From the NCBI GenBank assembly GCA_018262895.1, contig JADFDJ010000009.1, forward strand, positions 1 to 64,000: a DNA stretch of 64,000 bases, given 5' to 3'. Below the pieces are notes generated by a model. That model was not told the DNA's origin. It searched no databases and saw only the letters and a list, made by a program, of their open reading frames with translations. Position 1 is the stretch's first letter. Each line of letters begins with the position of its first letter. The DNA comes from Methanomassiliicoccus sp. Lineage in GTDB: Archaea; Thermoplasmatota; Thermoplasmata; Methanomassiliicoccales; Methanomassiliicoccaceae. Positions 92 through 1,079 of the stretch are shown here, in pieces. Position numbers and translations under genes: made by a program.

Positions 92-1079
92 AAGCTAGTT
101 GAAAAATTCCTCCCGTCGCATATCGCTCCAAGTCCAAAACTTGTTCTCGACCTCCGAGAACATTAGGTCGCGCTTGCGCGACCTTACGTCCGATCCCATC
201 GTTCGCTTCACCGCCGAGGACGCGTACTCAATCATCCAACGTAACGAGTAACCGTAACGTTTGTCCCAGAGCCACGTGCCGAGGAAGTTACGCTCGCGAA
301 CCGCGCGAGGACGTGCGTTAGTGAGACCACGAGACTTCGTGCTCGCGTCCTTGGAGAGCTTTATTCCTGCTTCGATATCATGACGGCCGAGCATATCGAA
401 GTCATCCAGCGTATCGTAAGCGCCGTCAGCAAGCACGCGCTTGATCGTGACGCCACGATCCAGCACCTGCTGGACGAGCGGTACGAACACGCCGTTGTCG
501 CCGACAGTGTCGTCCGTGACCACGACATCGAGTATGTCCAGCGTCTCGACGTCCACAGCGACGTGAGCTTTCACGAACCCTCGACGCTTATGCCACTTGT
601 CTCGTAACCACTCACCCCGTAACGACGTCGAGAAGCCAGTGGAGTCTACGGCGACGATGGCGTCGCGAGGTGGCACCACCGGTTCCGCATGGTCCTTTGC
701 CAGTCGTTTCTATATGATGGTGAAGTCCGGCGCCTTGACTTTGAGGTGGTCGATAAGCACGCCCTCGAGCACGCGCAGCGAGATGCGCATGCTCACGAGC
801 ATGCGTCTCACGATGGAGACCATGGTAGGCGGAAGAACATACTGTCGACCGCGCTTTCCGCGGTTAGCGCTTCTCAGAGTTCGGGGCCAGCGCTACAGCC
901 AGGTGCGCGCGAGCAGCTGACGTCCACGAGCGACATATCGCGCGTCGCTGTTGTGCCAACGGTTATTTACCTCCGAGCCCGATATCGTCCTGTCTGGCAT
1001 TGTTGTTCACGAACCGACGTGCCAACGCATGACGGATAAACTTTGCCAGACACATCTGTCCCATTTATGCAACTAGCTT
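92..1079 (-). mobile_element. IS5-type insertion sequence
   Basis: A unit of about 1 kb carrying a single leftward transposase frame (95-1000) and no passenger genes. Its edges are perfect 10-base inverted repeats: AAGCTAGTTG at 92-101 and its complement at 1070-1079. The CTAG inside each repeat fits the 4-base YTAR target used by the IS5 subgroup. The element proper could therefore run from 99 to 1072 with CTAG as target duplication, and the transposase stop would then lie in duplicated target DNA. I see no longer direct repeat outside. The boundaries are an inference; the family assignment rests on the transposase. Confidence 0.7.
95..1000 (-). pseudogene. IS5-family DDE transposase with two in-frame TAG codons
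   Basis: Read from an ATG at 998-1000, the frame is continuous for 301 codons except for TAG at codon 36 (893-895) and codon 97 (710-712); it also ends in TAG (95-97). The translation matches the IS5 layout throughout. There is an N-terminal DNA-binding region containing NRGKRGR, then a DDE catalytic domain with Asp119 (VDSTGF), Asp192 (LADGAYD) and Glu258. Both TAGs fall inside conserved stretches, and no frameshift or deletion is seen. Either two nonsense mutations have killed the copy, or TAG is decoded as pyrrolysine as in Methanomassiliicoccales. From a GTG at 677-679 the catalytic part alone (194 residues) would be open. After the last TAG the frame stays open 23 codons to TGA at 23-25. 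Confidence 0.75.

Follow-up and report, generated by a model that had tools for sequence, protein, structure and literature searches.

The element and its transposase frame

Near the left end of the window (the whole 64,000-nucleotide stretch of Methanomassiliicoccus DNA that was analysed), and preceded by 91 bases of contig C30, lies a mobile element with a transposase frame on its minus strand (Table 1). Translated from 1000 to 95, this frame is 301 residues long; TAG stands at codons 36 and 97 and once more as the terminal codon, and none of the 301 codons is TAA or TGA. The first-pass annotation had described an IS5 frame broken only by the two internal TAG codons and free of frameshifts, and the translation confirms this. 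The read-through protein matches PF01609 in a profile search (E 2.5e-19) and scores 160.7 bits against NF033579 (transpos_IS5_2), above the cut-off of 140; on sequence criteria, the frame belongs to an insertion sequence of the IS5 family. Its catalytic motifs are intact: VDSTG, LADGAYD and Y-2-R-3-E-6-K, the last as YSLRWMIEYASSAVK. The window copy is like the NF033579 family in exceeding the cut-off and in having DDE motifs and terminal inverted repeats, but it differs in its two internal TAG codons, in the loss of the proline of a GRP motif and in the absence of a target duplication.

Table 1. Features of the element, in window coordinates
Feature	Position	Strand	Basis
IS5-family element, 988 bp, single genome copy	92..1079	-	perfect 10-bp terminal inverted repeats
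Terminal inverted repeat at the 3' end of the transposase, AAGCTAGTTG, includes the terminal TAG	92..101	+	sequence
Terminal TAG within the inverted repeat; TGA in the G014 copy, TAA in the G012 copy	95..97	-	
194-aa open frame past the second TAG, nearly all of the DDE domain	95..679	-	sequence, PF01609
Transposase frame, 301 codons plus stop, two TAG inside	95..1000	-	translation, PF01609, NF033579
In-frame TAG, codon 97; L021 has TGG, most close homologues Trp and the decayed copy of G009 TGA	710..712	-	
In-frame TAG, codon 36; column variable, with AAG (Lys) in the nearest fragment (G012)	893..895	-	sequence comparison
Leader stem-loop that involves the start-codon region (TCTGGCA pairs with TGCCAGA); two mismatches in the inner stem	993..1050	-	
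Terminal inverted repeat at the 5' end of the transposase, AAGCTAGTTG	1070..1079	-	sequence

The element is present once in its genome and was not found in six genomes of the same genus. The target site duplication of the ISH1 group is 8 bp. No 8-bp duplication surrounds the window copy, whose flanks read TTTTCATC and CCTTCCAT, as expected of an old or rearranged insertion, and when the unoccupied site was sought with the right flank, no relative proved to share that flank. The nearest intact relative, L021, comes from a genome of the same family of archaea (G014) that has the pyrrolysine (pyl) genes. Its inverted repeats and leader hairpin are similar to those of the window copy, but it has no internal stops, ends in TGA and is flanked on both sides by a perfect 8-bp duplication, CGACAGTA. 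Judged by this duplication, the element appears to be ISH1-group-like.

The leader stem-loop is kept in copies from three genomes (the window copy, L021, L032, L009 and L007), with one compensatory change among them (TCTGGCA/TGCCAGA as against CCTGGCA/TGCCAGG). It pairs the start-codon region and may limit translation of the transposase. Two pairs of the inner stem are lost in the window copy only, and its predicted fold is weaker, at -21.3 kcal/mol as against -27.8 to -31.9 kcal/mol in the others.

The open frame beyond the second TAG is unlikely to be a separate gene. Since it covers almost the entire DDE domain and could start at a GTG at 679, it might yield a fragment with the DDE domain only, which could, for instance, inhibit related transposases; but no homologue seen has such a start, the host genome holds no related active copy to inhibit, and this reading is extremely unlikely.

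Relatives and the two TAG positions

The first-pass annotation had proposed that TAG at the same two positions in several copies would support decoding. When relatives are aligned, none of those found has TAG at codon 36 or codon 97. L021 is 61% identical to the window frame over its whole length and has sense codons at both sites; relative to L021, the window frame has in-frame indels (+2 codons near 29-30 and -3 near 82). The codon 97 column holds Trp also in L023, L024, L025 and L026, Arg in L022 and Phe in more distant relatives; the decayed copy with TGA there is L041. Codon 36 falls in a column that varies among the other relatives too. In genome G197, one copy (L118) has TAG at another, conserved Trp, where its sister copy L106 is intact. 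A scan of genome contigs gave one distant verrucomicrobial relative as the sole match, and a scan of viral contigs found none.

The window copy departs from conserved sites 11 times and L021 12 times, so the number of departures speaks little for decay. Their kind is more suggestive of it: the window copy has lost the GRP-motif proline, found in 23 of 24 relatives, and a phenylalanine found in all 24, both of which L021 keeps. Silent and replacement changes assigned to each lineage (4-6 and 4-7 for the window copy, 2-4 and 0 for L021) hint at relaxed constraint, but such counts are too small to lean on. The pairwise dN of 0.32 and dS of 1.14 between the two copies mirror the history before the stops arose and do not tell decay from readthrough. 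A codon-usage score of segments of the frame was uninformative.

Pyrrolysine machinery of the host

The first-pass annotation had suggested that the host decodes TAG as pyrrolysine, and had taken an absence of pyl genes from the genome as the result that would speak against decoding of the frame. The genes are present. Contig C26 of the host genome carries a tRNA-Pyl (anticodon CUA) that adjoins pylS; next come pylB, pylC and pylD, which all exceed their NCBIfam cut-offs. PylS passes the model for its catalytic domain, and an absence of the pyl system from the host is rejected on the strength of this match, PylD and the tRNA. The N-terminal model PylS_Nterm (TIGR03912) has no match in the genome, which was not taken as a sign of pyl absence because the PylS of this order is a shortened form (PMC3941956). 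Beside the cassette lie a RamA-like activase and the methylamine methyltransferase genes mttB and mtbB, each with one in-frame TAG and a full-length profile match across it. Given a complete cassette and these two genes, the host can decode TAG.

Two further observations concern the cassettes. The pylS gene of the host (G000:C26, L082 10355-11183, minus strand) has TAG as its own stop, at the last position of the profile, and the next in-frame stop lies 46 codons on. Elsewhere, two pylS matches each in G009 (C23:63606, C4:81213) and G003 (C4:402808, C14:7385), with pylD near each, suggest that those cassettes are duplicated.

TAG as an everyday stop

An ability to decode TAG does not make it a sense codon throughout the genome. 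In 385 kb of host genome stretches, TAG ends 61 of the 308 open reading frames that reach 120 aa and 31 of the 194 that reach 250 aa, figures that are estimates, the frames having been chosen by length and not by a gene caller. Complete reassignment of TAG to pyrrolysine is contradicted by the latter count and by the domains that are complete before TAG. TAG is modestly under-used as a stop, making up 16% of ends as against 24% of stop triplets, and in the same 385 kb the open frame past a TAG is no longer than that past a TGA or TAA.

Ten TAG-ended host genes with long extensions were also scanned for domains. In five the domain is complete before the TAG (a glycosyltransferase, a semialdehyde dehydrogenase followed by a separate ArgJ, FolE2, a HAD hydrolase and LMWPc); the other five have no domain and are uninformative, and in none does a domain span the TAG. 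Of the TAG-ended genes examined, mttB and mtbB are the only ones in which the protein continues past the TAG. A list of 99 frames joined at TAG, compiled mechanically, held too many spurious frames and was dropped. The host does not decode TAG generally, and in its genome TAG often serves as a true stop.

In its use of TAG stops the host genome resembles Methanomassiliicoccus luminyensis, in which 11% of stops are TAG (PMC3941956) and no pyrrolysine protein is predicted beyond the methyltransferases (PMC4153887); the figure for Ca. M. alvus is 1.6% (PMC4153887). Counted by the same script among frames of 250 aa or more, those that end in TAG number 9 of 72 in G035 and 14 of 71 in G012, both of which have pyl genes, and 18 of 61 in G036, which has none. 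G091, also with pyl genes, has no TAG among 77 ends (stretches L143-L151), as against a 17.5% share of TAG among stop triplets, and seems to shun TAG as a stop.

Decay or readthrough

The element is very probably a lone IS5 copy that has undergone ordinary nonsense decay, in an archaeon that happens to be capable of using pyrrolysine. The transposase would have been inactivated by two nonsense substitutions, both TAG by chance. At codon 97 the change would most simply be a single transition from a Trp codon, TGG to TAG, and at codon 36 the TAG may have come from lysine or another codon. Because the host also uses TAG as a regular stop, translation of the frame would mostly end at codon 36. The stops themselves, their absence from the relatives, the pyl cassette and widespread termination at TAG are observed; that the stops are mutations, and in what order they arose, is presumed, and little or no full-length protein would be made.

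Several lines of evidence favour decay: the common use of TAG as a stop, by pylS among others; the completeness of domains before it; the single copy without a target duplication; the lost proline and phenylalanine; the two hairpin mismatches; and the codons that relatives carry at the two sites, sense codons in L021, AAG for codon 36 in G012 and another stop, TGA, for codon 97 in G009. The first-pass annotation had held that sense codons in sister copies together with other disabling mutations would count against decoding, and this is largely what is seen, with L021 supplying the sense codons and the window copy showing the residue, hairpin and duplication losses. Some features fit decay less well. 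The frame has suffered no TAA, TGA or frameshift, its catalytic motifs and terminal repeats are intact, its host decodes TAG, and L021 strays from conserved sites about as often.

The earlier argument had been that random decay should give TGA and TAA as well. All single-base changes that make a stop were enumerated with transition weights from 1 to 4. Whether the start is the window sequence or L021, one step to a stop most often yields TAG (49-60%), and the probability that two random nonsense mutations are both TAG is 0.24-0.36. The argument is weak for that reason, and the chance pair of mutations that the first-pass annotation had also allowed is quite possible.

Alternatively, tRNA-Pyl may read both TAG codons, so that a full-length transposase is made whenever the pyrrolysine system is active. 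The cassette, its CUA anticodon and the in-frame TAG of mttB and mtbB provide the means; all stops of the frame are TAG, the catalytic motifs are intact, and some other members of the order with pyl genes have transposases that are open but for a single TAG. There is a precedent in Methanosarcina acetivorans and M. mazei, where a family of transposase copies carries one conserved amber codon (PMC2933860). Such readthrough is nevertheless very unlikely here, though conceivable at a low level, and the full 301-residue product that the first-pass annotation envisaged lacks support. TAG usually stops translation in this genome, every protein would need two suppressions, no relative shares either TAG, pyrrolysine at codon 97 would replace a mostly aromatic residue, and the frame ends in a third TAG. 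The element gives no sign of recent movement, since it is single-copy.

The Methanosarcina transposases, like that of the window, have an in-frame TAG in a methanogen with pyl genes, but their copies share one conserved amber codon whereas the window offers one copy with two unshared TAG codons (PMC2933860). Similarly, mttB and mtbB have an in-frame TAG in the very genome that carries the window transposase, but they have one each, belong to curated families of pyrrolysine enzymes and lie beside the pyl cassette. If readthrough were true, a mobile element would be coupled to methylamine metabolism. Gating of this transposase by pyrrolysine supply, with movement only when the methylamine/pyrrolysine system is on, is very unlikely, and even if real it would not be the first of its kind, because the conserved-amber transposases of Methanosarcina are on record (PMC2933860).

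Between these two readings lies a biased form of decay, in which partial suppression makes TAG milder than TAA or TGA and lets it accumulate by near-neutral drift, with no selection for readthrough. Across the order, most stop-bearing PF01609 matches in genomes with pyl genes carry TAG, and in-frame amber mutations have been argued to be stable in a strongly suppressing relative (PMC4153887). However, the order-wide counts are small and uncorrected for base composition, TAG is already the likeliest nonsense product, the host under-uses TAG as a stop only modestly, and a copy in G004, of the same genus, has a TGA besides three TAG. We consider drift of this sort very improbable as an account of the window copy, and return to plain nonsense decay as the preferred one.

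A pyl cassette and a frame that is open but for TAG are insufficient for a pyrrolysine protein to be called, because TAG is both the likeliest nonsense product in such sequence and a normal stop in the lineage.

Transposases elsewhere in the order

Pyrrolysine-dependent transposases elsewhere in the order are conceivable, although the counts that would bear on this are small and uncorrected for composition, and have little bearing on the window copy. The contrast in TAG stops within one order (0 of 77 in G091, 31 of 194 in the host) shows that there are better genomes in which to seek them. Two transposase frames from relatives of different genera that have pyl genes, L136 (G063:C4) and L142 (G035:C1), have TAG at an equivalent codon (NRPLTA*E and NRPLTV*K, respectively) and are better candidates for pyrrolysine decoding than the window copy. 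A third frame, L132 (G088), has CCG at that codon and a single TAG elsewhere.
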